A stretch of DNA of 64,000 bases from Owenia fusiformis. Its lineage: Eukaryota; Annelida; Polychaeta; Sabellida; Oweniidae. The stretch is from NCBI GenBank assembly GCA_903813345.2, contig CAIIXF020000002.1:25124455-25188454 (forward strand). The letters are read 5' to 3'. The number at the start of each line of letters is the position of its first letter. The first letter of the stretch is position 1. The translations under genes and the position numbers were made by a program. Positions 1,991-55,300 of the stretch are shown in pieces. A model generated the notes under the pieces. It was not told the origin of the DNA. It worked only from the letters and a program-made list of their open reading frames with translations, and ran no database searches.

Positions 1991-2547
1991 GCTTTGGAAG
2001 CAGCTACTGTGAACGTCATTGTTTGACAATTATAAAAAAATATTAAATTAACAAAAAAGTAACAACCATAGTTGTTTCAATCTTATTGAGTAAAAATGTG
2101 CATGTATTGAACTGAACTAATAAGTATGTGGAAAGGTTACATGCATTTTGACTATCATTCACAGGGGTCAAAACGGTTATCTCGACCCTGTATATTAAAG
2201 ATCCAATTTTATAATTTACCATGCACTTTCAATGATTCATATAAATAGTATACATATAGTCTTAAAGCATCTGAAGTATATAGCATGATTAGAAGTGAAG
2301 ATGATTCATCATATGGTTTATGTAATATTTCTAACATTACAGATGCTATGGTAACATCACTTGATAATGAGGTTTTTACATTTCACGTTCTTAATGAGTT
2401 AAAAGGAAGTTTTTCTCCCGTGCTTTAGGGATAAATAGTCGCATGAATTTGTTTAGAAAAATTATAACTTAATTAATTTAACCCCCCTTGACAGCCCCAT
2501 ATTTGAAGATTTTGGTGAAACCTGGCAAAATACATTAATTATTAGGT

Positions 2548-4072
2548 TCCAGAAGCCCCCAGAAGCTATATGATGGCCCCAAGAATCTATACAGGGGCCC
2601 CAAGTGGCCCCCAGAAGCTATACTGCGCTCCCCAGAAGCTATATGTTGGCCCCAAGAAGCTGAATAGTGGCCCCCAGGAGCTATACGGTGGCTCCCAGAA
2701 GCTATACAGGAAACTCTGTGGCCCCCAGGAGCTATACGGTGGCGCCCAGAAGCTATACAGGGGCCCCCAGTGGCCCCAAAAAGCTATACGGTGGCCCCCA
2801 GAAGCTATACAGGGGGCCCCAGAAGCTATACGATGGCCCCCAGAAGCTATACAAGGGCCCCCAGAAACTATACTATGGTCTCCAGAAGCTATATGGTGGC
2901 CCCCAGTGGCCCTCGGAAGCTATATGATGGCCTCCAGAAGCTAATTAGTGGCCCCCAGAAGCTATACAGTGCCCCCAGTAGCCCCTAGAAGCTATACGGT
3001 GGCCCCCAAAGCTATATGGTGGCCCATTGGGGGACACTGTATAGCTTCTGGAGGCCATCGTATAGCTTATGGGGGCTACCGTATAGTTTCTGCCGGCCCT
3101 TGCATAGCTTCTGGGGGCAAACGTATAGCTTCTGGGAGCCACTGGGGGCCCCTGTATAGCTTCTGGGGGCTACAGTACAGTTTCTGCAGGCCCTTGCATA
3201 GCTTCTGGGGGCCATCGTATAGCTTCTGGGAGCCACTGTGGGCCCCTTTATAGCTTCTGGGGGCCACTATATAGCTTTCGGGGCCACTGGGGGCCACCGT
3301 ATAGCTTCTAGGGGCTACTGGGGGGCCTTTTATAGCTTCTGGGAGCCATTGGGGGCCACCATATAGATTCTGGGGGCCATTGTGTAGCTTCTGGGAACCA
3401 CCATATAGCTCCTGAGGGTCACTATTTAGCTTCTTGGGGCCATCATATAGCCTATGAGGGCTACTGGGGACCACCGTATAGCTTCTAGGGGCTACTGGGG
3501 GCCCTTCACATCTTCTGGGAGCCATTGGGGGTCATCATATAGATTCTGGGGGCCATCATGTAGCTTTTTGGGGCTCCTGTATAGCTTCTGGGGGCCATCG
3601 TTTAGCTTCTTGGGGCCACTGGGGTCTCCTGTATAGCTTCTGGGAGCCACTGTATAGCTCCTGGGGGCCACTAATTAGCTTCTGGAGGCCATCATATAGC
3701 TTCCGAGGGCCACTGGGGGCCACCATATAGCTTCTGGAGACCATAGTATAGTTTCTGGGGGCCCTTGTATAGCTTCTGGGGGCCATCGTATAGCTTCTGG
3801 GGGCCCCTGTATAGCTTTTGGGGGCCACCGTATAGCTTTTTGGGGCCACTGGGGGCCCCTGTATAGCTTCTGGGCGCCACCGTATAGCTCCTGGGGGCCA
3901 CAGGGTTTCCTGTATAGCTTCTGGGAGCCACCGTATAGCTCCTGGGGGCCACTATTCAGCTTCTGGGGGCCAACATATAGCTTCTGGGGAGCACAGTATA
4001 GCTTCTGGGGGCCACTTGGGTCCCCTGTATAGATTCTTGGGGCCATCATATAGCTTCTGGGGGCTTCTGGAA
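2548..4072. repeat. 21-bp tandem array at the palindrome centre
   Basis: Units are built on CCCCAGAAGCTATAC plus about six variable bases. Units read on the plus strand from 2548 to about 3010 and on the minus strand from about 3018 to 4072. Because 21 is a multiple of three and units rarely contain stops, long open frames appear in several frames on both strands, translating to repeats such as MAPRSYT. These frames are by-products of the array, not evidence of proteins. Confidence 0.9.
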
Positions 4073-5829
4073 CCTAATAATTAATGTATTTTGCCAGGTT
4101 TCACCAAAATCTTCAAATATGGGGCTGTCAAGGGGGGTTAAATTAATTAAGTTATAATTTTTCTAAACAAATTCATGCGACTATCTATCCCTAAAGCACG
4201 GGAGAAAAACTTCCTTTTAACTCATTAAGAACGTGAAATGTAAAAACCTCATTATCAAGTGATGTTACCATAGCATCTGTAATGTTAGAAATATTACATA
4301 AACCATATGATGAATCATCTTCACTTCTAATCATGCTATATACTTCAGATGCTTTAAGACTATATGTATACTATTTATATGAATCATTGAAAGTGCATGG
4401 TAAATTATAAAATTGGATCTTTAATATACAGGGTCGAGATAACCGTTTTGACCCCTGTGAATGATAGTCAAAATGCATGTAACCTTTCCACATACTTATT
4501 AGTTCAGTTCAATACATGCACATTTTTACTCAATAAGATTGAAACAACTATGGTTGTTACTTTTTTGTTAATTTAATATTCTTTTTATAATTGTCAAACA
4601 ATGACGTTCACAGTAGCTGCTTCCAAAGCTGGATAATTTTGTTAATTCTGATCCAATTTTGAAGATTTGTTGTCTCTTTAATGTTGCTTATATCTTCCAC
4701 TCATCAAATAAGGGACAAAACTATGCACACATTCTGACCCATTCTGTCATACGGCCTCAGTTCTAATAGATATGTTGCTATACTAGGATATTCTGAACCA
4801 AAAATGGATTGATGACGTCACAATTAATGCAAATTAGCTAATTTGCATAACTGAATATTGTAACCATATAGTAAATTTAATAAGGTTTAATCAGATACCA
4901 ATATCATCTCTATAGACCAAATAATGGCGAAGCTACATTGATTCAAGACTCCAAGGTAAGACGTATGTATATTATTGTCAAATAATGACATTCACGATAG
5001 CTGCCTCGAAAGTTACATAACTTTCGTAATACTGATTCAATTTTGAATCTGTTTTCACTTTTATGTTGCTTATACCTTCTACTAATAGAATAAAGGACAA
5101 AACCTTTCAGAAATTTTGCCATACGGCCTCAGTTCTAATAGATACGTTGCTATAGTTGGAAATTCTGAACCAAAAATAGATTGATGACGTCATAATTTAT
5201 GCAAATTAGATAATTTGCATAATTGAATATCATAAATTTATTGGAAATTTAACGAGGTTTAATTTGGTACCAATATCATTTCTATAGACCAAATAATGAC
5301 AGAGCTACAAATGATTTAAGATACCAAGGTAAGATGTCTAAAGATGCGTAACCATGGTAACTGAATGCCGCCATAAAAGTACTATGGGACATTAGTTGGC
5401 AATGTTAACAAATGAATTCATTAAATAGACACCCTAGGGATTACAAAAATGTATGTAACTTATTCACACCTTATGGGTGCATGGGAACCCCTTGTTCCTA
5501 CTATACTATAACTAAATGTATAAATTAACTGAATGAGGATCATAACGAGAAAGTCTGAGCGGAAAAACGACAGGCCAAACGAATGGTCTAGAATTTCCAA
5601 AAATAAAATAAAATAACCAATACAATTTATTGAGGTCGTGCTTTTAGGGGATATGCTGATAGCTTATAACATTTTTACAATCGTCAACACGTTTTCTTTC
5701 CCAGGAATTAATCCATAGGAATCCACTAGACCTCTTAGTCTACTGAGATACAGTTTCTGGTAAAATACTAAATGCAGATGATCATGTTGCATATATCTAG
5801 ATATATAAAACGAAATAAATGAAGTATTA

Positions 5830-11759: not shown

Positions 11760-13290
11760 ATCATGCATCCAATCAACTAGAATCAACTCATGCAAATCAT
11801 GATCAAAATATCAGATAGGCCATTCTACTTTAAAACAACAAAATGCAAACTGTGTTTAATAGATCAGATAGGCCATTCTACCTTAAAACAACAAATGCAA
11901 ACTGGGTTTAATAGATCAGATAGGCCATTCAACCTTAAAACAACACATGCAAACTGGGTTTAATAGATCAGATAGGCCATTCAACCTTAAAACAACAAAT
12001 GCAAACTGGGTTTAATAGATCAGATAGGCCATTCAACCTTAAAACAACAAATGCAAACTGGGTTTAATAGATCAGATAGGCCATTCAACCTTAAAACAAC
12101 AAATGCAAACTGGGTTTAATAGATCAGATAGGCCATTCAACCTTAAATAAACCAATGTACATGTATATTATAATCAAGATCAGATAGTTTAAATCAACTA
12201 ATGAATTTATGATCGAAATATCAGATAGGCCATTCTACCTAAGCATATCAAAGCAAATTATGATCAATATGTTCAGATAAGTCATTATACCTTAAATCAA
12301 CTTGATCAATATGATCAATAAACCATATAGGATATTTTACCTCAAATCAACTGATGCAAATTGAGATCAATAGATCATATAGGCAATACTACCTTAAATG
12401 AACCAATGTAAATTAAGATCAGATAAATAAATTAATAGACCAAATAGGCCATTCTGCCTTAAATCAACTAATGCAATTAGTAATTGAAATACCAGATAGG
12501 TCATTCTACCTTAACACATCAATGCAAATAATGAGCAATAGATCAGATAGGCCATTATACCTTATATCAACTAATACATGATCAAATTCAATAAATCGGC
12601 TATTCTAACTAAAATCAACCAATTTAAATCATGATAGGCCAGTCAACCCTAAATCAACAAATGCAAATTATAGTAATCAATAGATCAGATAGTCCATTCT
12701 ATATTGAATAAACCAATGTAAACTATGACCAATAGATTAGATAGGCCATTCAGCCTTAAAACAACAAATGCCATTGGGATTAATAGATCGGATAGGCCAT
12801 TCAACCTTAAAACAACAAATGCCATTGGGATTAATAGATCGGATAGGCCATTTAACCTTAAAACAACGAATGCACTCTTGGATTAATAGATCGGATGGGC
12901 CATTCAACCTTAAAACAACAATGCACTCTGGGATTAATAGATCGGATAGGCCATTCATTCAACCTTAAAACAACAAATGCAAACTTGGATCAATAGATCA
13001 GATAGGCCATTCTACCTTAAATCAACGAATGCAAATTATGATCAATCGATTATGCCTAGGTCACATTTGCTCCAATCCATCGGCCGTTGCCCGGTCGATT
13101 GAGTGTTTTGCTCAATATTGTATTCAATTTTGAACAAAATACTCAATCGGCCGGGCGCCATAGTGAAAATCGGAGCAAAGGCATTATTTAGGCAATTCTA
13201 CCTTAAATCAACGAATGCAAATTGAGATCGAAAGATCAGATAGACCAGTCTTCGATTCTACTAATGCGAATTGTAATCAAATTAATAAAT
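11760..13290. repeat. Minisatellite of about 52-bp units
   Basis: Units carry GATCAGATAGGCCATTC, then AACCTTAAAACAACAAATGC and a variable tail. Five almost identical 52-bp units lie between about 11870 and 12150, with diverged units on both sides out to about 13290, next to the donor of the coding exon at 13307. The mix of a homogenised core and decayed edges is typical of a minisatellite growing by unequal exchange. Open frames within it are repeat by-products. Confidence 0.85.
13054..13190. mobile_element. Hairpin MITE inside the 52-bp minisatellite
   Basis: An inverted repeat interrupts the array: CATTTGCTCC / GGAGCAAAGG at the outside and CGGTCGATTGAGTGTTTTG / CAAAATACTCAATCGGCC at the inside, around a short AT-rich loop. 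The flanks are minisatellite units, so the hairpin arrived after the array formed. No target duplication is clear. Confidence 0.6.
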
Positions 13291-28557: not shown

Positions 28558-28688
28558 CTATGGTCCACAGGATTTTGGACATCTATCATCAGGATTGTGC
28601 CCTTGAGCAATTAGAAACTCTCGCAAGCTGTCGAACTGGTCACGTTGATGTTCAAATAAATCTAGCAGGCGTTTCATTTCACGAATAT
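28558..28688 (-). CDS. Intact stray copy of the last exon of the secreted Cys-rich gene
   Basis: This segment is nearly identical on the minus strand to the terminal exon at 34680-34800. It keeps the flank ATTATATTTTCAG as acceptor, an open frame (REMKRLLDLFEHQRDQFDSL ... CPKSCGP) and the TAG stop. Differences are few (for example NPDAGC becomes NPDDRC). No copies of exons 1-3 were found between here and 32 kb on the minus strand. It is therefore either the remaining 3' exon of a dispersed paralogue whose other exons lie elsewhere, or an exon copied by inversion. Expression is unknown. Confidence 0.55.
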
Positions 28689-29583
28689 CTGAAAATATAA
28701 TTTGGTGTACCCATTGTTTGTTTACATTTTGTAGATAATAGAATAGGGCTAATGTTTACATAGGTATTTGAGCCACAATATGAGAAACCCAGTCTTGTCA
28801 CATATCTGACTGTTTAAACTAAGGTAAAAAAGAGCCAGAAATTTAGATCAAATGCCTACACTAAAACGTTAAAATAGTGAATTATTGAAGAGTTGATCAC
28901 AATTGTAAAATCCATATATTGCAATTAGCTTTAATAGAATGAAAAATGAAAGCTTATATGATAATAAATGGCATACAATAAGATCCTTTTCTCACGATCG
29001 TACTCAATTTTAAGACTAGTCCATCAGCTTACTGCATGTTACCCCTGCTTTGGACAATTTTGATATTTTTACATAGTACTATTATTGATTTAAATTGAAC
29101 ATCCATAATTTAATTTGGGTGTTATTTCTATATTTGTCATAAAAAGTATTAGCGCAGTAGACATATGAACTTCGTTCTCCAAATCGAGACTTGTCATTTA
29201 TTGAATCGGTCTACTGCACGTTACGCCTTGCCTCTGTTTGTTCACCCCCGTGTTCACCAGCCCAGCTAATGATTACGATAGCTTGAGATGTTATATTATG
29301 AACATGACGCTGCCAATCTCTGCTAAGAAGTAAAATGAGATTTTGGTCTTCTTTTAAAGTTAAAAATAAATTGAAAAAGCGTAAACCAAACAAGAAATCG
29401 AACCAATGGACATGTACAAAATTATCTAAAAATGCCAGATGAGCAGTTAGTTTATTCAAATTTTACTCAAGAAATGCATAGAATAGAAAAGAGCATAGAT
29501 AAAATGTATTTAAGGGTCTTCTGCAAGTAACCGGGATTCTTGGATTTCATCTTCCTTTTTTCCCAGAACCAGTCTCATTGTTA

Positions 29584-31010
29584 TCAATTATTAGGAGGCC
29601 CCATCGGGGGGCCTCCTATCAATTTTGTAGATATTATTATTATTATTATTTATTCTTCCTCCCTCTTTTTCTCCTACTTCCAACTACCTTTCAACTAGGT
29701 ACTACATAGTCCTACTAGGGACCTGGGCTGAACTTGGCGGGAAAGGAATTTTTATCTAGGTCAAGGTCAAAATCTAGGTCAAATCTAAGTTTTTTTCAAG
29801 TTTCTCAAATCCTGACACTACACTTAAATATTTTTGGCTGAATTTTTGCACACAGATAGATATTAGTATTCTATTAGTCTTAGCCTTTTGCCGTCTAGAG
29901 AAATTTTGCCTAGATTTTGAGATATTGAAGGTCAAAAAAAGGTCAAAAAAGGTCTTTTTTCAACTTGCTTCAAATTGACCAAATTTTTTTTTAAAACTCA
30001 TCTACAAGTTCTCAGGATTCCAAATCTGACCTTACTTTTGACCTTTGACCTTTGGTTGACCTTCAGTGACCTCCGAAAGGTAAAAAAAGTTGATTTTTCA
30101 AATCGATTTTCTGGATTCAAATTTAGGTATATTTATTCACAAAAGATCTTCTGAGGTCTAAAAAAGTAAAATTTGCAAGGTCAAAGGTCAAGGTCATCAA
30201 ACGAAATCACAAACTGTGTTTTCTAAGTTTCTCAAAATTGGAGACTACAAATCAATTTTTTTTACTGAAAGTCAGAATATATATTCCTCTAAAGGTTCTA
30301 CACATATTAGCAATTGACTATTTATTAAAATTTTGCTCCAGTTTTGAGATATTAGAACTCAAAAACTGAAAAAAGGTCAAATTTCAAAATTTTTCAAGGT
30401 CAAATTTCAACTTGCTCTAAATTGACCAAACTTTTTTTTAAAAAGCATCTACAAGATCTCAGGAACTCAAATCTGACCTTAGTTTTGAACAATGACCTTT
30501 AGTTGACCTTCAGTGACCTTCGAAAGGTCAAAAAAGTTAATTTTTCAAATTGATTTTCTGGATTCAAATTTAGGTTTCTTCAATCAGAAAAGATATACTG
30601 AGGTCTAAAAAAGTAAAACCTGTAAGGTCAAAGGTCAAGGTCATCAAACAAGATCACAAACTGTGTTTTCTAAGTTTCTCAAAGTTTGTGACTACAAATC
30701 AATATTTTTGAATTAAAGTCAGGATATATATTCCTCTAAAGGTTTTACACATAATAACAATTGATTATCTATTAAAATTCTGCACCAGTTTTGAGATATT
30801 GGACCTCAAAAACTGAAAAAGGTCTAATGTTGAAATTTTTTCAAGGTCAAATTTCACATTGCTTCAAATTGACCAAACTTTTTTTAAAAATCATCTACAA
30901 GATGCCTGGAGTTCATATATGTCCTTGTATTTAAGATTTGACCTTTGGCTGACCTTTAAATGTTCAAAAAAGCCTACGGGGCCTCCGTAAGATTGCTTGC
31001 AATCTTCTAG
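29584..31010. mobile_element. Helitron-like non-autonomous element with core tandem repeats
   Basis: The right end carries the 18-base hairpin AAGATTGCTTGCAATCTT (30989-31006) immediately followed by CTAG and then T, matching the Helitron 3' rule (hairpin, CTRR, insertion before T). The left end can be placed at TC (29584) after an A. GGAGGCCCC/GGGGCCTCC motifs occur near both ends (29595-29617 and about 30978-30986). Between them are three diverged units of about 450 bp, rich in AAGGTCAAAGGTCAAGGTCA. The element has no Rep/helicase frame. The overall plan resembles Helentron-related elements with central tandem repeats described in bivalves. Confidence 0.6.
29740..30970. repeat. Three diverged tandem units of about 450 bp
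   Basis: The block CTGTGTTTTCTAAGTTTCTC at 30211 recurs at 30660 (offset about 449), and a more diverged copy starts near 29790. Each unit contains CAAATTGACCAAACTTTTTTT and TTTTGAGATATT. They form the core of the Helitron-like element. Confidence 0.7.
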
Positions 31011-32085
31011 TTATTCCATCAATTACAAAATGTTAATTTTACTATTATGGCATTTCTGTAGTCTGTGATATTTGTCAATCTATAAAAGATACACAACAGT
31101 ATAAGGATTTAAGCATATTTTTTATTGAACTATGAAATTGATCAGTTTATCGGTTTTATTAGTTTCACTAATCTAGAAATGACCTATCGGTGGGTTGTTG
31201 TTGATTATGTAATGCAATGCAGTTATTTGAAATAACGCGTTCTGATTGGCTGGAATTGGCCACACTCTACTTGCATAGTTATGTGTGAATTGTTCACAAT
31301 GTATTTGGATAAATCCATGAGAATAAATTTAAAATTAGTCGATCTGTAGTCGCACCATTTCTGCATACCTTTCTGTTCCGCTCTGTAAATATAGGAGAAG
31401 GGCATATGATGAATGGGGATGCAGTCATAAACAAAACTGATTACTTCCAGAGCCAGCTTTACAAGGCAATACTGTAAAGGTAATTTGAGATACAGGTATG
31501 TAGGATCGTCACTTACGAGATTAATTTACAAATCGTCCGCCATATCAAGGCAACACCAACAATGTCGTCTGAATTTCAATTTATCTGTTAGCAAACTCCA
31601 TATCACTTGCAATTGATGGAATTGTCAGATGGCTTAACAATATCCCTACAAAAGTCATTCGCTGACATGAGTATCTGTTTACTATTTGTGATAGTCATTA
31701 GACGGTACATTCAAACAATGAGACGGTTTCTGGGCACACTTGAATGTAGGAAGTTGAATTCGAAGAATCTTGATAGAATCCAGACGGCCCTTGACTGAAT
31801 TATCCCAAAGTTCCTACTTATTCTATGCTTTTCTCTCTGAAATTTAAACGAACTACCAAAGTATCTGATGTAGTGACTTTTATAAGGCTTTTCCACATGC
31901 CCATCGATTATTTTTCTTGTTGGGTGCAAACTTTCTCAATTTATTTTAGATTTTAAATGAACACCAAAACTCATTTTCTCCTGAGGATGGACAGCATGTT
32001 TTCAATTAAACACCCTAAGAAATAACAATAATACAAGCTTGGCGAATGAACTATCATAACAGAGGCAAGGGTCTAGGCAAAAGAC
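31011..32085. other. Upstream region of the secreted Cys-rich gene
   Basis: No gene or repeat is recognised. It should contain the promoter and 5' UTR of the gene at 32086, but I see no clear TATA box or initiator that can be assigned. Confidence 0.4.
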
Positions 32086-32441
32086 ATGGCTTTATACTTC
32101 ACGGCTGCTACTGTCATCTTAAGCATCAGCATACATGGATATAATGCTAAGTTCCCTGATGCGTACATTTCTGATTTCATCCCAGAGAACTACAAGGATG
32201 AATACATGGAGGTTGGTGGAAGGAATAAACGATCTGTTGTATTCTCGGGGGTAGAACCAGAGGGGGAAGAGGTACTGAATCGACTGAATAACATCATGAA
32301 CAATGCGAGCATCAGTGCTGAGAGCAAGCAAAGACTGGAGGCTGCATTGAGCAGTATCGGCAAGGGACAGAGCAGCGGTGGAGGAGATGGCATTGTCCGT
32401 GGACGTAGTTTCGGCAAATCAGGAATAGCCGTTCATAGAGG
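32086..32441 (+). CDS. Secreted Cys-rich gene, exon 1
   Basis: Encodes the signal peptide, the furin-like RNKR site and the Gly/Ser-rich segment up to AVHRG. If the donor at GG|GTGAAT is not used, the frame ends at TGA two bases later, giving a 119-aa product. In-phase joining to exon 2 favours splicing, but an intron-retained short form is possible. Confidence 0.65.
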
Positions 32442-34800
32442 GTGAATACGCATTATATTTCCTTGGAGATAAGTCTCATTTGCTTTATATCTCTTTAATA
32501 TGACAGTCACCCAATATAAGTCAAGACATCAGACTATAATTAGGCTTTGTTGAAAAAGAGTTATTAATTTTGAAGTTTAAAAGTCTTAAGCTGTAAATTG
32601 TTTCAATCATTCTCTTTCATTTCAACCATTTCATGCATTTCGACCCCCGTTTTAAGCAGTTCGCCCGCCAGTGTATACACTCTTTTTCCAATTGAGGTGC
32701 TGAAGGATGTAGAAATTGTTTAAGAAATAGACACCGAATTCACAATTCTATTCACTTGGCACCCTTAGGAAAAATCAATAGTGAACTATTATTTCATGGA
32801 TTATGGCGACGGCTTCACAAATTGATGTTGACCCTTAACCCGCCCATGGACTTTTGAGACCATGAGACTGGATTTTTATCCGACATTATTTGAGTCTGAA
32901 TGCTCTATGTTGTATAAGTACATGTACTTGTATCTACAACTATTTTGATGCTATCAGCATTGGCTATCAATTTCTTCAACATGTATTGTTATGACTTCAG
33001 TATGAATGAAATGTCACTTAGTGTTCTGACTTGAGTGGTTCTTGAATGGTGGGGGAAAGGGGGTGTTAAACATACAGTAGCTTTTCACGTTAGATCGTGG
33101 CTTAGGGATATATGGGGTTTGCTTTTTTTCACGACTGGTATAAGGGCCCCACTAAGAGTTTGCTTTTTTTCTTGCTAGGTTCCATTGCAAATGCTGGTCC
33201 TTTTCCTTTGCCACTTCTTTAGCTTAAATATCTATAAATGAGAGGCATAGAGGTATGACTAAGTACTATATACAAGATTACTAAAAAGACGGAATCAAAA
33301 GTATCAACTTATATTGCAGATCAATAGGGGTGATGGACAAAAGGTTGTGGCCTGTTGATCTACGACCAATGACTACACCGCGTCCACAACTACATGCGAC
33401 CCAATGTTGTTGTAAGGTTGCTGTCCCACCCCTGTCACGACTAACATCTCGCAGGGTTACAAGATCGCGGTCAGCATACAGACGAGTCCGGGCAGGGAGT
33501 AGAAGGTGTGGGTTTGCTGGATGGAGACGATGCACTCAATGGAGAAATCAACAATAGTGAGTATTTTGCAACATTGTTTTTTATTGTAACATTGGGGATG
33601 ATAGAAAACACAATTTAGTTTATTTTATCAATCTTTACAATCGATGTATAATATCAATATTTTCAGAAAATAATCATTCTTACTTGTCCATATTAGTTAC
33701 AACATGTTTGTGTTTTATTGTTTTGGGGATTTATTTTGAGGTGTTAGGCCAAATTAATTGAAATATTACTTGTAATTCGTTCTTTCCAAAGTCTTGCTTG
33801 ACGCCTTTCTGACAACCCTTATCTCCCCCTTACCTACTTACAAGGTTTTGTATGCTAATATCAATTATTGAGGTATCTCCAATATTTCCACGTTTTCATT
33901 ATGGTGTTTTTTCAGTCCAATATATTACCACCAGACCGTTTACACTGCCTATTATACACAAAGGCTTTGCCCCAAGGACAAAGAGGTCTGCTGTAGAGGT
34001 TTTGTACCATACAAACGCTGCTGTACAAGTAAGTACTTGATCTTTTCAAGAGCTTCATAATCATCTAGAACTGTTATACACCAAGTTCTTGTCCCAAGGA
34101 CCAAGTGGTCTGCTGTAGATCTAGATGTTTTCTATCCTACAAATGATGCTATGCAAGTACGTAGACACTTTTCAGGAGCTTCATCCACCTTTTATACAAA
34201 AAAGGACTAAAAGGGGTCTGTTTTAGATGTTTTGTATTCTACAAACGCTGCTGTACAAGTAAGTAGACCTTTTCAAGAGCTTCATTTTATCTTTACGGTT
34301 TTGACTATAGGCAATTTTTGATAGGACTATGTGGTAAAACATTAAGATAGTGTTTTCCCTCTGTTTACCTAATATTGATGCCAAAAGATCATAAAGGCTA
34401 TAGATCGACATCAAAACTATTAAATCTTCTGCAATCGTCAGTGGGTATTGATACAAACAATTGGGGATCAGGGTAAGTTTGTGTATATCAAAGACAGAGG
34501 GTGACATCTATGAATTGACAGAAAATCGATTTATGTTCAACCTGTAAAGTGCTGGGCAACATATCAGGCGAAGTAAAAATAGTTACAACAAAAAATGTTT
34601 TGGAAGGCGTAAAAAGCTTGATTTAGCCTTATTATATCATGTGATTGATGTACCAAATTATATTTTCAGATATTCGTGAAATGAAACGCCTGCTGGATTT
34701 ATTTGAACATCAACGTGACCAGTTTGACAGCTTGCGAGAGTTTCTAATTGCCCAAGGGCACAATCCCGACGCTGGATGTCCAAAATCTTGTGGACCATAG
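32086..34800 (+). CDS. Predicted secreted cysteine-rich precursor, four exons, unrecognised family
   Basis: Exons 32086-32441, 33320-33556, 33916-34028 and 34670-34800 join in phase (2, 2, 1) into 278 codons plus TAG. The start MALYFTAATVILSISIHGYNA is a typical signal peptide. A furin-type site RNKR follows at about residues 46-49. Next come a charged, Gly/Ser-rich segment, a strongly basic region (RRVTRSRSAYRRVRAGSRR) with CCC before it and two single Cys after it, then LCPKDKEVCCRGFVPYKRCC (spacing C-x6-CC-x8-CC), a helical REMKRLLDLFEHQRDQFDSL and a tail GCPKSCGP. That gives 12 Cys in the matured part. Donors are GTGAAT, GTGAGT and GTAAGT, the first being weak. Secretion, proteolytic maturation and disulfide bonding are inferred. 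Candidates include a matrix, defence or peptide-hormone-like protein; no family is recognised. Confidence 0.65.
33081..33222. repeat. Dispersed repeat of about 140 bp, copy A
   Basis: CTTTTCACGTTAGATCGTGG ... GAGTTTGCTTTTTTTCTTGC ... TTTGCCACTT is clearly related to 51449-51583. It lies in intron 1 of the secreted-protein gene. Confidence 0.65.
33320..33556 (+). CDS. Secreted Cys-rich gene, exon 2
   Basis: The acceptor is ATATTGCAG. Only one frame is open across the exon, the one that continues exon 1. It encodes QCCCK, the Arg-rich region and two further Cys, ending WRNQQ before the donor GTGAGT. Confidence 0.65.
33916..34028 (+). CDS. Secreted Cys-rich gene, exon 3
   Basis: The acceptor is TTTTTTCAG and the donor GTAAGT. 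It encodes YPIYYHQTVYTAYY followed by the C-x6-CC-x8-CC module. Two decayed copies of its 3' part follow at 34076-34156 and 34192-34258. Confidence 0.65.
34076..34156 (+). pseudogene. Decayed duplicate of exon 3 (copy 2)
   Basis: Aligned with exon 3 the frame reads CPKDQVVCCRSR..., then meets TGA in place of the codon for the Arg before the last CC pair. The splice donor (GTACGT) and the following TTTTCARGAGCTTCAT intron sequence are kept, so the duplication unit included exon and intron. Confidence 0.6.
34192..34258 (+). pseudogene. Decayed duplicate of exon 3 (copy 3)
   Basis: It matches the 3' part of exon 3 (ACAAACGCTGCTGTACAA) and keeps a perfect donor, GTAAGT. The upstream half is eroded, with an in-frame TAA early on. 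This is the third repeat of a unit of about 110-120 bp. Confidence 0.55.
34670..34800 (+). CDS. Secreted Cys-rich gene, exon 4 (terminal)
   Basis: After TATTTTCAG the frame encodes an amphipathic, charged helix-like segment, then AQGHNPDAGCPKSCGP and TAG. It has an intact inverted copy at 28558-28688 and a broken direct copy at 34851-34986. Confidence 0.65.
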
Positions 34801-34835
34801 ATAGAGGACAAATGTAAATAAACAACGGGCATAGC

Positions 34836-34986
34836 AAATTATATTTTCATATATTCGTGAAATGATATTAAACGTCTGCTAGATTTATATGAACATCAAC
34901 GTGACCAGTTTGACAGCTTGCGAGAGTCTCTAATTGCCCAAGGGCACAATCCCGATGCTGGATGTCCAAAATCTTGTGGACCATAG
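34836..34986 (+). pseudogene. Decayed duplicate of exon 4
   Basis: It is nearly identical to exon 4 and its upstream intron flank. The acceptor is lost (TTTTCAT in place of TTTTCAG), and five extra bases (ATATT) after GAAATG shift the frame. The end CCAAAATCTTGTGGACCATAG is preserved. This is a recent tandem copy that can no longer be used as the original exon. Confidence 0.7.
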
Positions 34987-35319
34987 ATGGATGACAGATG
35001 TATAAATTAACAAAGGGCAAAAGTGTGCTCCGAGAGTTCGTTGTCATGTGTTTGGTAATAAATACGCTCAATGAAATAAGGGACAGACTAAAATGTGCTT
35101 GCTTTTTGCCCTAATGTTGCACATTTACTACGCCACTCAAACATTGGATATAGAGATATAGTACAAAAGAATACATGAGTCGATTTAAATTTCACAGGAT
35201 CTTTTAACTAAATGCTAACCATAGTGTATAATTTGAAAGAAAATATTAGCTCGTCCAGTAAATTCAGACCATCAATAAACACATTTTACATGAAGAAAAA
35301 TACTAAAAAAGACAAAGCT

Positions 35320-35625: not shown

Positions 35626-36044
35626 CCGGTACTCCACTCGATTACGCCGGTTACCATAACGGACAGTTTCGGTGACAAAATGTCTGAACCTCGAAAGTAC
35701 GATTTTACTTTTTTCCACGACATTTGTATCGCAAACGTGTGTCAGTATCATATATGTTTAAGAGAATGTACACGTTTGCCAACAAATAGTTCAGAAGACA
35801 TAAACAGAACGGTTTAGAAGTGCAGATCTTAACCGTTTTTGAAATTCCGTTTACGTAACAAAAGCGAGGTATTAAATCGACGATTCTGTTGTCTGACTTC
35901 TGAACTATTTGTTCGCAAATGTGTATATTTTCTTAGACATATGATACTGACACACGTTTGTGATAAAAATGCTTTGGCAATTCTACCTACAATGCGTGAA
36001 ATAAGGAAAAAATCGTACCTTGGAGGTTCCGACATTTTGTTACT
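35626..36044. mobile_element. Foldback element, truncated family member
   Basis: The two halves are inverted copies: TCAGTATCATATATGTTTAAG ... AATAGTTCAGAAGACA on the left mirrors TCTGAACTATTTG ... CATATGATACTGACAC on the right, around AACCGTTTTTGAAATTCCG. It belongs to the same family as 49767-50296, but its right end stops at GACATTTTGTTAC, so it is incomplete. Overlapping short frames on both strands follow from the palindrome. Confidence 0.75.
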
Positions 36045-36660: not shown

Positions 36661-37041
36661 TGTTTGCTCCGTCCAATTGTAGCGTTTAACTATCCCTCGT
36701 ATATTTTCTGTCCATTTGATGTTATGGTCATTTCACGGTTGTTATTCGTCGTAAAAACCAGATCGACACTTTGACGAGTACAGAACACTATAAATATAAA
36801 TTAATAATCAACTGATGCAACTATACATGTAAGACTATTCGAAGTGTTTTTAAAGTGGCATTTTGTTATCATTAAAACAATTGAATTCTTAAAAATACAT
36901 AATTCTTAAGTTGAAACCCTTATCATATGACATGATTGGCCATGAAATACTTTCTTTTTAACTAAAACATATTACGTTAACCGGCGATGTGTGTACTGTT
37001 TGTAACGGGACAGCAGATGACAGAACAAGTGTATCAGCAAT

Positions 37042-38700
37042 ATGTTCGACTCTCTCATTCCATTGGAACTCGTATTTACGACTATAATCGTTGGTTTTAT
37101 TTCGTCGTGTTTAGCACTATATTGCACAACATTGGATGCAGTTCCATTTACGGGGCCGTTTCCACGACCAGCCATTAATGAGAGCAAACGACGAGGACAC
37201 AAGGAGTGTAGATTAAATGAGAAGGACCAACGCGTTGCAGATTTTGTTAGGTTTATATCCGAAAAGGTTGACATAAGGAGAAAATACATACACAATGAAT
37301 TAGTGAAACATACAGACTACATAGAAAACCTAGTTCAATCAATCTGTGGGAAGGTTTGTGAATTCAATAGAGCGTTTCGGATAAAAGAAATAGTACGACG
37401 GGGGAGCTTTTACGATCGCACGAAAATTGTTGAGCCGAACGAATACGATCTGATGGCCATTCTTTTAATATCGGACAGTAGTGCCATCGACGTATTTTTG
37501 AACGAAAACTGTCATTACAAAGATGAAGGATGGGGGTATGGGTTAATAAAGCTAGTGAAGTCGGATTTAACGCTCCCTATTCCAAAGGATTGTATGATTA
37601 AAACGTCCCATGCCGTACACGCTGCCGGAGAATCTTGGCAACTTAGCTACGTTATAATGTACAAACTTAGAGAGGCGGTAGAATGGGCATTAAAGGAAAT
37701 GAAGGATGTTAAACTTTTGACGGGCAATGAATTTACATTTCATAAGGACGATCCCAAAAATCCGTATCAACTCGGGGATGTAAGCTTGCATTGGGATTTA
37801 CATGGACCTAGCGTTTGGTTACGAGTGGGGGCACCTCTCTGCACCACTGATATCGATTTGTGTTTTTGTATCGAGCGTAAGAATCCAGTGAAAATTACTC
37901 GAAATATTCAAAATTATGAAGATAATACTAAACGCCCACAAATGGACACACAAATATCCACTGTCACGCATACGAAGTTGGGTAGATGCGCGATGATTCG
38001 GGGGGATACCTATCAATGCGACAAATGCATTGAAGATCATTGGGTGGAGTCCGTCATAGACCCCTTAAAGAACAAATGTGCATGGACAGATTCACATCGA
38101 TCGCTTTTACTCACGTTCAAGATGATATCGGAGTTCATGAGGAAGCGATACAAGTATGTTGACTTTTTCCCTTCGTATTATCTGAAGGTATTGTTGGTTG
38201 AGCACGAAAATAAATGCAACGATGAAACAAACGTAGGGAAATGCTTTTATGATATCGTCAATAGATTTAAAGCGAATGATCTTGGACTTGAGGATTTAGA
38301 GACCATAGACGAGGTATTTGAAAATGAAGATGACGCCAATACAGATGAGTTTACGATTCAATTGGAAACCGGGAAATTTCCACGTGTAAAACCAATTCCA
38401 GACATGCATTATCCCAAAAGGAAAATATTTGGGAAACTTCACGGAGCTATAGCCCTCATTTGGTTTCTACAATATGTAAAACATACACCTAATACTGAAT
38501 GGTGGGCGAAACTCACTGGGTCTGAATTTGGTGTCCAAGAAAATGAGCCATTTAAATCATTAACCGAAACATTCGAAAGGGTAAACACTTGGACAACATC
38601 TTTTCGTACTGGTGACTTGTATCTCCATAATGGTAGTAGACTAGAACTTAAATGGCAACACGATGATGGTACAGATACGTATGTGTGTGTTACCCAGTAA
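37042..38700 (+). CDS. cGAS-like / Mab-21 family nucleotidyltransferase with N-terminal membrane segment
   Basis: An intronless frame of 552 codons. It carries the nucleotidyltransferase signature RRGSFYDRTKIVEPNEYDLM (G121-S122, then acidic E134 and D136), and the third acidic position fits D270 in TTDIDLCFCIE, the arrangement of metal ligands in cGAS and cGAS-like receptors. The Mab-21 C-terminal lobe is visible around SYYLKVLL (K382), which aligns with the SYHVK segment of cGAS. Members with all three acids can make cyclic dinucleotides on sensing nucleic acid; ligand and product here are unknown. Residues 8-31 (LELVFTTIIVGFISSCLALY...) are hydrophobic, predicting a membrane anchor or signal. 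C326, C329, H333 and C346 could bind zinc. The in-frame upstream stop TGA at 37018 makes M1 at 37042 the first possible start, unless an upstream exon is spliced on. AATAAA signals follow at 38922 and 38936. Confidence 0.85.
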   Translation: MFDSLIPLELVFTTIIVGFISSCLALYCTTLDAVPFTGPFPRPAINESKRRGHKECRLNEKDQRVADFVRFISEKVDIRRKYIHNELVKHTDYIENLVQSICGKVCEFNRAFRIKEIVRRGSFYDRTKIVEPNEYDLMAILLISDSSAIDVFLNENCHYKDEGWGYGLIKLVKSDLTLPIPKDCMIKTSHAVHAAGESWQLSYVIMYKLREAVEWALKEMKDVKLLTGNEFTFHKDDPKNPYQLGDVSLHWDLHGPSVWLRVGAPLCTTDIDLCFCIERKNPVKITRNIQNYEDNTKRPQMDTQISTVTHTKLGRCAMIRGDTYQCDKCIEDHWVESVIDPLKNKCAWTDSHRSLLLTFKMISEFMRKRYKYVDFFPSYYLKVLLVEHENKCNDETNVGKCFYDIVNRFKANDLGLEDLETIDEVFENEDDANTDEFTIQLETGKFPRVKPIPDMHYPKRKIFGKLHGAIALIWFLQYVKHTPNTEWWAKLTGSEFGVQENEPFKSLTETFERVNTWTTSFRTGDLYLHNGSRLELKWQHDDGTDTYVCVTQ

Positions 38701-49300: not shown

Positions 49301-52300
49301 GTTCTTTTAGTGATTTTGTATCATATAGGTGATTTTATAGAAAATATTTTGCAATGTGTGAATTGAATTTAAGCCCAATACTCAATGCATTGTGGCTGCT
49401 TCATTCCACTCAGATGTTGTTTCCTAAGCTTTGCCTTCTCCCTATTCAGTTATGCAAAGATTTGGAAACAAAATCTTCGTAGAATTGTTCAGCACACAAT
49501 GCACCGAATCCAAGGCTTAAATCCTTAAATACCTTAACAACATGCAATGCCTACAAAACAACATGCAGTATCTATAAAAACAAAATGCAAGCGCTACAAA
49601 ACAACAAACCTCGTAATCAGGTTCCTCAATATAGATGGGAGAAGTCTTCAGAAATAAAATAAAAATGCATTTGTAAAAAGTTAGTAAGGTGTTCAACTTT
49701 AAGGTTCCTCTTACTAGATGGGAGAAGTCTTCAGAAAAAAAAATACATTTGGAAAGTTAGTTAGGTCACTGGTGATCCGCTCGATTACACTGGTTACCGA
49801 AATGATTCGTTTCGGTAACAAAATGTCGAAGGTATGATTTTTCCCTTTTCTGTATTTCACACATTGTAGGCAGAATCCCTATGACATTTTTCTCACAAAC
49901 TTGTTTCAGTATCATATGTTTTAGAAAATGTACATGCTTGGGAAAAAATAGCTCAGAAGACAACAGAATCATTGATTTAATACCTCACTTAAGTTACGTA
50001 AACAGAATGGGTTAAAAGTGCAGATCATAAGTTCTTAACTGTTATTCGAAATTCTGTTTATGTAACTTAAAGTGAGGAATTAAATGGGCGATTCTGTTGT
50101 CTTCTGAACTGTTTGTTCACAAACATGTACATTTTCTTAAACATATGATACTGATACACGTTTGTGAGAAAAATGTTGTGAGAATTCTGCCTACAATTTG
50201 TGAAATAAGGAAAAGAGAAAAATCGTACCCCCGACATTCTGACATTTTGTTACCGAACCATTTCGGTAACCAGCGTAATCGAGTGGATCACCAGTGTAGG
50301 TGTTCAGCTTTCAAGTTCCTCTATATAAATGGGAAAAATCTTCAGAAATAAAATAAAAAAATGCAGTTGTAAAAAGTTAATAGTGTTTTACTTTAAGGTT
50401 CCTCTATATAAACGGGAGAAGTCTTCAGAAATAAAATTAAAAAAAAAGATGTACAGTGTATATGTTACAGAAAAGGGTCAGTTCAAAAACCAAGTCTTGA
50501 CAACACCCCCACCTATTTCTCAACGAGAAAATGATGTATGAATATTCATGAATCTGATTACATTTAAATCCCATGTAAATGAATTTCCTTTGGTACCTCA
50601 AAATACTGTTCATTTTCTGATGTGTTTGAGCTGTAGAGGTTGATTTTACGTTAAGTTATTTGGTGATTGGATTTGAAAGAAACCGATATTGTATTGATCT
50701 GACCCTTACAAAACAAAACCTGTTGAAGAAACTTGAATAAGAAAACTTTATTTTCGTAACGAAATACGAATGAGGCAGTTAAACGTTCTTCAAGGATACT
50801 CGGATGAAAAAAGATGAGTGTATAAACTCCCGAGAACTCTTAATAATGAATAAATGGAAAACATCTATAAAGAAGTGTCAGGAATCATTCCCTTTTGCAA
50901 TCCTCTGTCTATGGCAGAGACTATACCCCTCCCTCAAATGTAACCGATTGCATCTATGGGTGTCTTTTGGTGTAGATGAAATATTGACCTGGGGGTTATT
51001 AACAGGTACATGTACTTTGTAGAGTGCAGAATTCCTATTGTAGTAACCATGGATATAACGATGTCATAGTTACATGTGGAGAACAATGGACTAAAGAAAT
51101 TCTTATCATTACAAAGTTTCTGTTTGCCCCCTGGTCTCTCAAATCATATCTCTCATTAAACATGTAGTTATATATCAAACTTACAGCTTGGAAGCAAGCC
51201 ATTAGGCTTCCCCCATGGAAGACATTCCAGATGTGGATCTTGCCCCTTGGCCCACTGGATACCAGAGAGGCTGCTTCCTTATTCTGAGCTCTGGTCTTCA
51301 AGAACAGTAGGCTATTAACACTAAGGTCTCCCGCCCCTGGAAAATATATGACATTATCTTTATAATCCATAGAGTGGGGTAAGTTTACACTTATTAATCC
51401 TTCCCTGGAAAGTATATATAAGAATCATTATCTTCACTATTTCTATTTCTTTTCACGTTAAATCATGGTTTTGGGCTATATGGGGTCTGTTTTTCTTGAC
51501 TGGTATGCACTTAGAGTTTGCTTTTTCTTGCTTAGTTCCATTACAACTTTTGGTCCTTTCCCTTTGGCACTTGTGCTTATATATTTGAAGGATCGAGAAG
51601 AAAAACGTGAACCCAGAACATTGCCCAAAGTTGTATAAATACAGACTGTACATGCTTGTTGAATAAATATTGCCATGGACAGTTATTTCAAATGGCATGC
51701 AATTTTCAAAAAGATAAAAAACTATTTAGGTTAACTCTATAAAATTGTCTTTAAATCTGTATGCTTAACTCTTGAAACTTACATGATGCTTTCCTTTCAT
51801 TATTATTTTCAGCCGTTGTATCGGGTGGGTGCAAATGACAAAATATATGACCAGAGACTAGGTTCCACACAATAACTTCACCATCGTATGAAGATGTTGC
51901 GATTTTATTGGGCGGGCATTGAGCAATGGCAAGAATATCCTCTTTGTGGCCGTTATTTTCATCATCAGACCATCGAGGAAGAGGATTCTGTACATGGTGT
52001 ATACTACCCTCGTCTCCGTCTGAATATATGTTTATACTGCGGTCCCAACCAACGGATACTATATACCTACAAGGTACAGAAAAAATATGAAATGAGGCAT
52101 TAACATGCAAAATGTCAGCACTTGCCATTTGTTACAGGAACACCTGACACCATCACAAATAGTTGGAGACTATAACAATATGTCACTACTTGTGGTTGTG
52201 ACATAAATACAATACATTTACCATTGACAATTTGAACTAAATTATTGTCAAGTAGTACAAAGTAAGAAGGTTTGAAGTAATTTTCAAAACAATTCAACGA

Positions 52301-55300
52301 TCTTATTTCATTTGTATTGAATTTGTCACACAAAGGCCTTAATGTCTTCGTGTGTGATCATTTAATTACTTAAAATTAAACAATCTATAACTCATCATTA
52401 AAGACTTTGATACAAAACTAATTCTGTAAAAGGTACTGCAGAATTATGTACCATGTACTTACTACAAGTGTTTGTATTTATGTGGATGAAGGTTTGTATC
52501 ATTATCTATTGATGGGGCATAGGGTTATATGGGTTCAGACTAAGAGATTTTCTTTAAAGAGTCTCTTTAAATATGTATATTCACTAGTGGTGCAACTCGC
52601 AAGAAAAATGCCACTCGAGTAGAAAGTGTGAAAATGCCACTGTAATCGAGTACCACTCGCAAAAATGAGGGAAAAATTTAAAAAAATAAAAACTCACCTA
52701 GTCGACTGTTTGAAGACCAAATAGATACAATTTCTTCGTTTCTTCTATATGTTATTGATGTTATATATAGTTTGTATCAATTTAGTGAGAATAAATGTAG
52801 TTATTCATGCCATAATTGTGTTTGTTTGTTTGTTTTTAAATATTTTCATTTTGTTTCCGGAATCGATACTTTGTTTCGTTCAGTGCATCCAAAAATGATC
52901 ATTCCCGGGGTATGAGATCGTTGTTTGGGAATTCAATGCCTACTCGAGTTTGAAAAAACGTACTCGAGTAACTACCTTGGACAGGTTCAACGAGTGAGTG
53001 GCGAGTACTGGCATTCGAGTTGCACCACTAATATTCACCAACTTTTACATCAACTTACCTATTTTTATTCATCTCTACATACACAACATCACACACCTCT
53101 TCTGGCTCTGTGTCAGCTAAAATATCAAAAGAGCAACATTTAATTTATCATTCTGAATGAAAGACATGCAAATTCACCCCCAAAAGTTGGCAACTATGCT
53201 TCCCCATTGTATAGCCAGTTATAATGTTTTATGTTTAAAGAGCATATTACATAAATACACCATTGCTCATACATATGGAATATTTTCCAATTTACCATTA
53301 ATTTCCCCATTTCCAATGCCCTCTCAAATTTTACTGAAAGGAGATTTTTCAAATATTTCATAGAACAGTCGGGAAAAATAAAATAAACACATTTTTTATT
53401 AGAAACATTTCAACCAGAAGGTAACTTCACTCGTTCCTTTAAAATAATTACAAATTCGGCTTACATTTTGTAAGAGTCCTCAGACATTGTCCATTATTGT
53501 AATTCCAGACCTTTAGGCAACCATCCCTACCCCCTGTGATCAGTCTTCTCCCTGTTCCATCAAAGTCCATACACGTGATGGCTTCTGTACCATGGGCCTC
53601 TCCGAAGTCAAACACAGGTCGACCACTTTCAAAGTCCCATAGTTTAATTGTCTGAAAACAAACCCATTTCAGTAACTACATGTTGTAGACTATTACAACA
53701 TTTGAAGGTATCATAGATGGATCACCTTAAATATACACATGTTACTTGTCTAAAATAAAATCTTTTTGTATATTTACGATACAGGAAAAATTATATAACA
53801 TTGATATCACTAAAAGGCCTTAGAGAACAACCAAATGATGGCTATCATATAAAAAACAATTTAGTCAAAAACTACCATTAATTTGATTCTTTCCAAAAAT
53901 GTAACACTACTTCTTTATGAAATCTATAAATAACTAGAAGATGGCAACTCCACGGAGTAGCAAATCCCAACGAACACGAAATCATCAATCTGTACAGTCA
54001 CAATGGAATATTTACCATCTACTCTTACCTTCAATAAATATTTTAAATCATTGTAGTATCATGTAACCATACTTTCAAGATAACTCTAAGTAATGGCGAA
54101 TTTCTGCTCTAGTCAGCCATTTTGAATTTTCAGAGGCGCAAATCAGAAAAACAATGCCATAATTGTGATATACTCTGAAATTCCTTCAATTTGTGTATAA
54201 AATAGCCATACTTTTAAGAGATCAGAAAACAATTGCGAAATCCCGCATTAGGCGGCCATTTTGAATTTTTTGAGGCCCGAATCAGAAAAACGTTGCAATA
54301 TTTGCAATCTACTCTAAATTGCCTTTCATTTGAGTATAATAAAGCTATACTTCAAAAACATCTCAAAATTAACGCAAATTCCTGTTTTCCCCGATCCCCC
54401 ATTTACGGCCCCTGGGGGTCAGGGTGAAAAACCAGGGATATATGTGAAATAGATAGATGTTGTTAATATACTACCAAAATTTCAAATAATAATATTTATT
54501 ATTTTGGTTTAAAATGAAGAACATAAGATTATTGCGAAAAATTCCCGCCATTTTTAAACTGGCGCCCATCTTGAAAAAATTTTTTTTGCGTAAAACTGTT
54601 CACCAATATACATCTTTCCACCAAATATGAAAAAAATCTGTCCACTAGTATTCGAGTTATCTTCCGGACAGACAGACGGACTGACTGACGGACTGACGGA
54701 CTGACAGACTGACGGACTGACGGACAGAGGGCTTCACTATATCCCTACAGAACTTCGTTCGTTGGGATAATTAGATATCTGTTACTTACTGAGCCATCAG
54801 AGCAGGTTATGACTTGCTTGAACTGCACATTATATTTACAGGCATGTATGGGTTCCTTGTGGGTAATGACAATATCTGCATGGAGAACAGGCCTGAAACA
54901 TGCATATTTGAAAATCAACATCATTTTTATTAATTGACATGTCTGTCCATTTGTTTGGGGCACTTGGCATAAGTTCTGAATAATATTACACTAGTCCAGA
55001 AAAGGAGGGGAAGTGGGATCGATCCCCATTAGAGTAGACTGACTCCTGAAAATTTTGATCCTGAAAATGATGCACTACTAATTTTTAAATTATGTGCATA
55101 GCTTTTATTTGTTGGCAGAAAGGAAATTGTTGTTTCCATCAATCTTGTAAAATGTTAAGCAATTGTTCAACAATATGTACACACAATATGTATTGCAATG
55201 TGTACAACAATACAATCTTACTTGAGTCTTAGATGTAAACAAGCCAGTTGGTCTGTTGATACACAGAGAGCTTTAGCTGCAGGGGAATAATGGCAGGATT

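Follow-up and report, generated by a model that had tools for sequence, protein, structure and literature searches.

A probable four-exon gene with duplicated 3' exons predicts a furin-site, cysteine-rich, putatively secreted protein

Results

Gene model

A predicted four-exon gene lies on the forward strand of a 64,000-nucleotide stretch of Owenia fusiformis DNA (the window), accompanied by additional copies of its last two exons and by a diverged inverted copy of its 5' flank (Table 1). As the first-pass annotation of this DNA had proposed, the four exons join in phase; the resulting reading frame of 837 nt encodes 278 amino acids with no internal stops. All three introns begin with GT and end with AG.

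Table 1. Features of the gene and of its partial copies, in window coordinates.
Feature	Position	Strand	Description
Exon 1	32086–32441	+	Hydrophobic N-terminus, RNKR site, helical stretch with one sequon; donor GTGAAT
Exon 2	33320–33556	+	CCC, Arg-rich block, CGFAGWRRC; donor GTGAGT
Exon 3	33916–34028	+	Tyr-rich stretch, C-x6-CC-x8-CC; donor GTAAGT
Exon 4	34670–34800	+	26-residue helix, C-x3-C tail, stop TAG
AATAAA polyadenylation-like signal	34817–34822	+	Second one at 35057
Damaged tandem copy of exon 3	34071–34163	+	Stops in the matching frame
Shortened tandem copy of exon 3	34176–34258	+	Acceptor and GTAAGT donor kept
Tandem copy of exon 4	34832–35002	+	Acceptor CAG changed to CAT, 5-nt insertion
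Inverted intact copy of exon 4	28558–28688	-	Acceptor kept
Diverged inverted copy of the gene's 5' flank (31714–31977)	29332–29582	-	67.3% over 266 nt, E 1.9e-15

The model was recovered by an exon-chaining search to which the exons were not supplied. On the + strand of 31950–34950, it looked for the longest chain running from an ATG to a stop in up to four exons, using splice thresholds (donor at least 7/9, acceptor at least 6/12 pyrimidines) that were chosen after the sites were known. The longest chain consisted of exactly the four proposed exons, and its length of 837 nt was reached by none of 500 dinucleotide shuffles (median 291 nt, maximum 774 nt). Elsewhere in the window, 2 of 74 tile-strands reached 837 nt, both of them overlapping the open reading frame (ORF) at 37021–38700; the next-longest chains, below this length, were 789, 750 and 750 nt, with a median of 297 over the 74 tile-strands. 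At a stricter donor setting (8/9), the longest chain dropped to 360 nt. An ATG-initiated ORF of at least 119 codons, the length of exon 1 with its read-on and the longest in the stretch, was matched in 13 of 1000 shuffles; taken by itself, exon 1 is less unusual than the chain.

Codon usage was trained only on ORF 37021–38700 and two minus-strand ORFs, one of which (51035–51424) is unconfirmed as coding. By this measure the predicted frame outscored the other five in exons 1 and 2; in exons 3 and 4 it came second of six and is not favored. The four-exon gene is probably real and protein-coding.

Predicted protein

The hydrophobic N-terminus, the RNKR site, the arginine-rich block, the C-x6-CC-x8-CC module, the short Cys tail and the total of 12 cysteines described in the first-pass annotation were all found in the product. 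Hydrophobicity is maximal at residues 5–16. Downstream of this hydrophobic N-terminus, RNKR (residues 46–49) is the sole R-x-K/R-R site in the protein, and residues 50–278 carry a net charge of +20. The single sequon lies at residue 73. Cysteines occur at residues 148, 149, 150, 182, 190, 216, 223, 224, 233, 234, 272 and 276, with none before 148 (spacings 0, 0, 31, 7, 25, 6, 0, 8, 0, 37 and 3). Exon 4 folded alone gave a helix at its residues 2–27 with a mean pLDDT of 82.8; the AlphaFold model of exon 1, likewise folded alone, was not confident (mean pLDDT 41.6).

The first-pass annotation had recognized no family, and a search of the 278-residue product against NCBIfam, Pfam and the PDB gave no family match above cut-off. 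The statement held in full for NCBIfam, a mainly prokaryotic library that returned no match, and for the PDB, where matches were chance-like. It held nearly so for Pfam, in which one match, to PF22968 (RNF34L-like_3rd), fell below cut-off and is considered further below. A polyketide-type synthase was matched in the PDB (E 1e-6 and 6.2e-7), and the match was rejected as chance because that chain holds the matched stretch twice and each copy alone gave E 0.08 to 0.13; PDB chains with a single copy of the stretch gave E 0.03 to 0.04.

The product may resemble EMI-type modules in its C..GW..C motif, spaced tyrosines and CC-x-G-F; EMI was not among the Pfam matches at E up to 10, in a search whose HMMER filters may drop weak ones. 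When viral contigs were searched with exons 2–4 only, one stretch fit a pattern and no relative was confirmed. A literature search at record level returned nothing relevant, and Rfam and tRNA scans of the whole window found nothing.

Duplicated exons and an inverted partial copy

The first-pass annotation was silent on the duplicated exons and on the inverted partial copy. Of the two tandem copies of exon 3, the shortened one is open in the matching frame; splicing it onto exon 2 would create a stop codon, and splicing it onto exon 3 would put the reading frame out of register.

Comparison with the window by tblastn placed the inverted copy of exon 4 at 28692–28561 on the minus strand (90.9% identity) and the tandem copy at 34864–34983 (90.0% identity). 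Eight codons differ between exon 4 and the inverted copy, six of them synonymous and two replacement, where 21–31% synonymous changes were expected (p 0.0016 to 0.013, by the transition bias assumed). Of the five alternative frames, one on the reverse strand gave a synonymous to replacement ratio of 4:1 but contains a stop, and the sole stop-free reverse frame gave 0:6. Comparisons with the tandem copy were weaker (3:2 and 5:4). The 6:2 ratio against the inverted copy supports exon 4 as coding sequence under constraint.

The alignment of the gene's 5' flank with 29582–29332 extends to AACAGAGGCAAGG, directly before the ATG. This flank copy and the exon 4 copy farther along the same strand look like an inverted duplicate that has no recognizable exons 1–3. 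The exon 4 region matches its inverted copy at 94.2% over 154 nt and is far less diverged than the flank, a pattern that could reflect selection, later transfer or gene conversion. We rejected the idea that the inverted copy of exon 4 terminates a complete paralogue: the best chains encoded 80 amino acids (donor 7/9) and 155 amino acids (donor 6/9) and were unlike the gene.

Discussion

We infer from the features of the reading frame that the gene would be expressed as a furin-processed, basic, disulfide-rich secreted animal protein, a reading to which we assign a probability of roughly one half. The N-terminal hydrophobic segment would mediate entry into the secretory pathway, and a furin-like protease would then cut after RNKR (residue 49) to release a 229-residue protein that is strongly basic. 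The 12 cysteines would probably form disulfides around GWRRC and the C-x6-CC-x8-CC module, which would be followed by one amphipathic helix. Judged by composition only, the Arg-rich block would most likely bind polyanions such as glycosaminoglycans, mucins or microbial surfaces, so that the likeliest role would be in extracellular matrix, mucus or defence.

We place the gene in a broad kind, that of secreted furin-site cysteine-rich proteins. Like secreted, furin-processed cysteine-rich proteins, the product has a hydrophobic N-terminus, an R-x-K-R site and cysteines only after that site; unlike them, it has no match to any secreted family named in Pfam, NCBIfam or the PDB.

The first-pass annotation had also likened the layout to precursors of processed cysteine-rich peptides. 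Further cleavage at basic sites would then liberate an active peptide, either the disulfide module at the C-terminus or a portion of the exon 1 region, and the product does offer, besides RNKR at 46, two minimal R-x-x-R sites (164 and 173) together with eight KR/RR sites. However, the full furin motif occurs only once, and several of the KR/RR sites fall within the cysteine module and the helix. Glycine, the criterion for an amidated neuropeptide precursor, precedes none of the eight. The likeness is weak, and we regard a peptide precursor as distinctly unlikely. A different concern is that the model itself is wrong in part. The transcript might end at the TGA at 32443, up to which the exon 1 frame stays open (a 120-residue product), might read on past exon 3, or might use other or extra 3' exons. 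Chain runs allowing three, four, five or six exons gave identical exons 1 and 2 and an identical start of exon 3, and they ended differently: at a maximum of three exons the longest chain (738 nt) continued past exon 3 until a stop codon at 34060, at five (849 nt) it skipped exon 4, and at six (906 nt) it kept exon 4 and added two small exons. Because the five- and six-exon chains are longer and are altered after exons 1–3, the end of the gene is less certain than its start, and codon usage is neutral in exons 3 and 4. Against such errors, exon 4 and its inverted copy show an excess of synonymous changes in the predicted frame, and both keep the acceptor. We consider a partly wrong model unlikely.

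The sub-threshold Pfam match raises the question of whether a SAP-like domain, with PF22968 (rififylin-like) as its relative, is encoded by the exon 3–4 segment. The whole protein matched with E 3.5e-4 (21 bits) and the exon 3–4 segment with E 5.3e-5 (23.6 bits), both under the curated gathering cut-off of 27 bits; exons 2–3 alone gave no Pfam match. The match covers 33 residues and part of the profile (positions 17–49 of 55), and because it crosses the exon 3/4 junction it mildly supports the exon join. None of seven control sequences (one reversed and six shuffled with the cysteines fixed) matched PF22968, but two of the seven matched elsewhere in Pfam, weakly (E 0.062 to 0.19). PF22968 is named after ubiquitin ligases, which act inside the cell, whereas the product looks secreted and matched no other ubiquitin ligase part in Pfam. 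Homology to these intracellular enzymes seems unlikely, the match is probably convergence, and a SAP-like domain is very improbable.

The furin-processed secreted protein that we favor is likely to be the product of a genuine gene, a candidate orphan of a fairly ordinary sort, with no family recognized in NCBIfam, Pfam or the PDB. A bolder proposal is that it represents a new secreted animal family whose disulfide fold (CCC ... CGFAGWRRC ... C-x6-CC-x8-CC, helix, C-x3-C) is undescribed and whose last exons are changing by tandem and inverted duplication; we think this rather doubtful. If real, the gene would add a candidate secreted cysteine-rich family and would bring together, in ~7 kb, the duplication of last exons, their decay and an inverted copy under constraint. 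Many secreted genes are lineage-restricted, so relatives or a function would have to emerge to raise interest in this one above a moderate to low level.

Other features of the window

The single-exon ORF at 37021–38700 on the + strand encodes 559 amino acids; its similarity to the cGAS/Mab-21 type is weak (Pfam PF03281, E 0.0024, under the cut-off; best PDB match E 0.0017, cGAS entries from E 0.0045), and it is possibly a cGAS-like receptor gene. Two exon-like ORFs on the minus strand encode WD40 repeats (PF00400), at 51754–52131 (E 1e-5, just under cut-off) and at 53451–53675 (E 1e-9, above cut-off).

Several repeats were also observed. A minisatellite-like array at 2546–4073 is built of GGCCCCCAGAAGCTATA-type units and flips to the reverse complement near 3028, and a satellite-like array at 11810–13035 has a unit of ~52 bp, with 97% matches over 11810–12147. 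A 447-bp unit is repeated in tandem, roughly twice, at 29958–30903, in the interval that separates the gene from the inverted copy of exon 4. A dispersed repeat at 35633–36000 and 49856–50287 occurs in both orientations, with inverted arms at 35672–36043, and looks like a small mobile element. Finally, a stretch of intron 1 (33081–33231) recurs with 77% identity at 51449–51584, between the minus-strand ORFs at 51035–51424 and 51751–52131.
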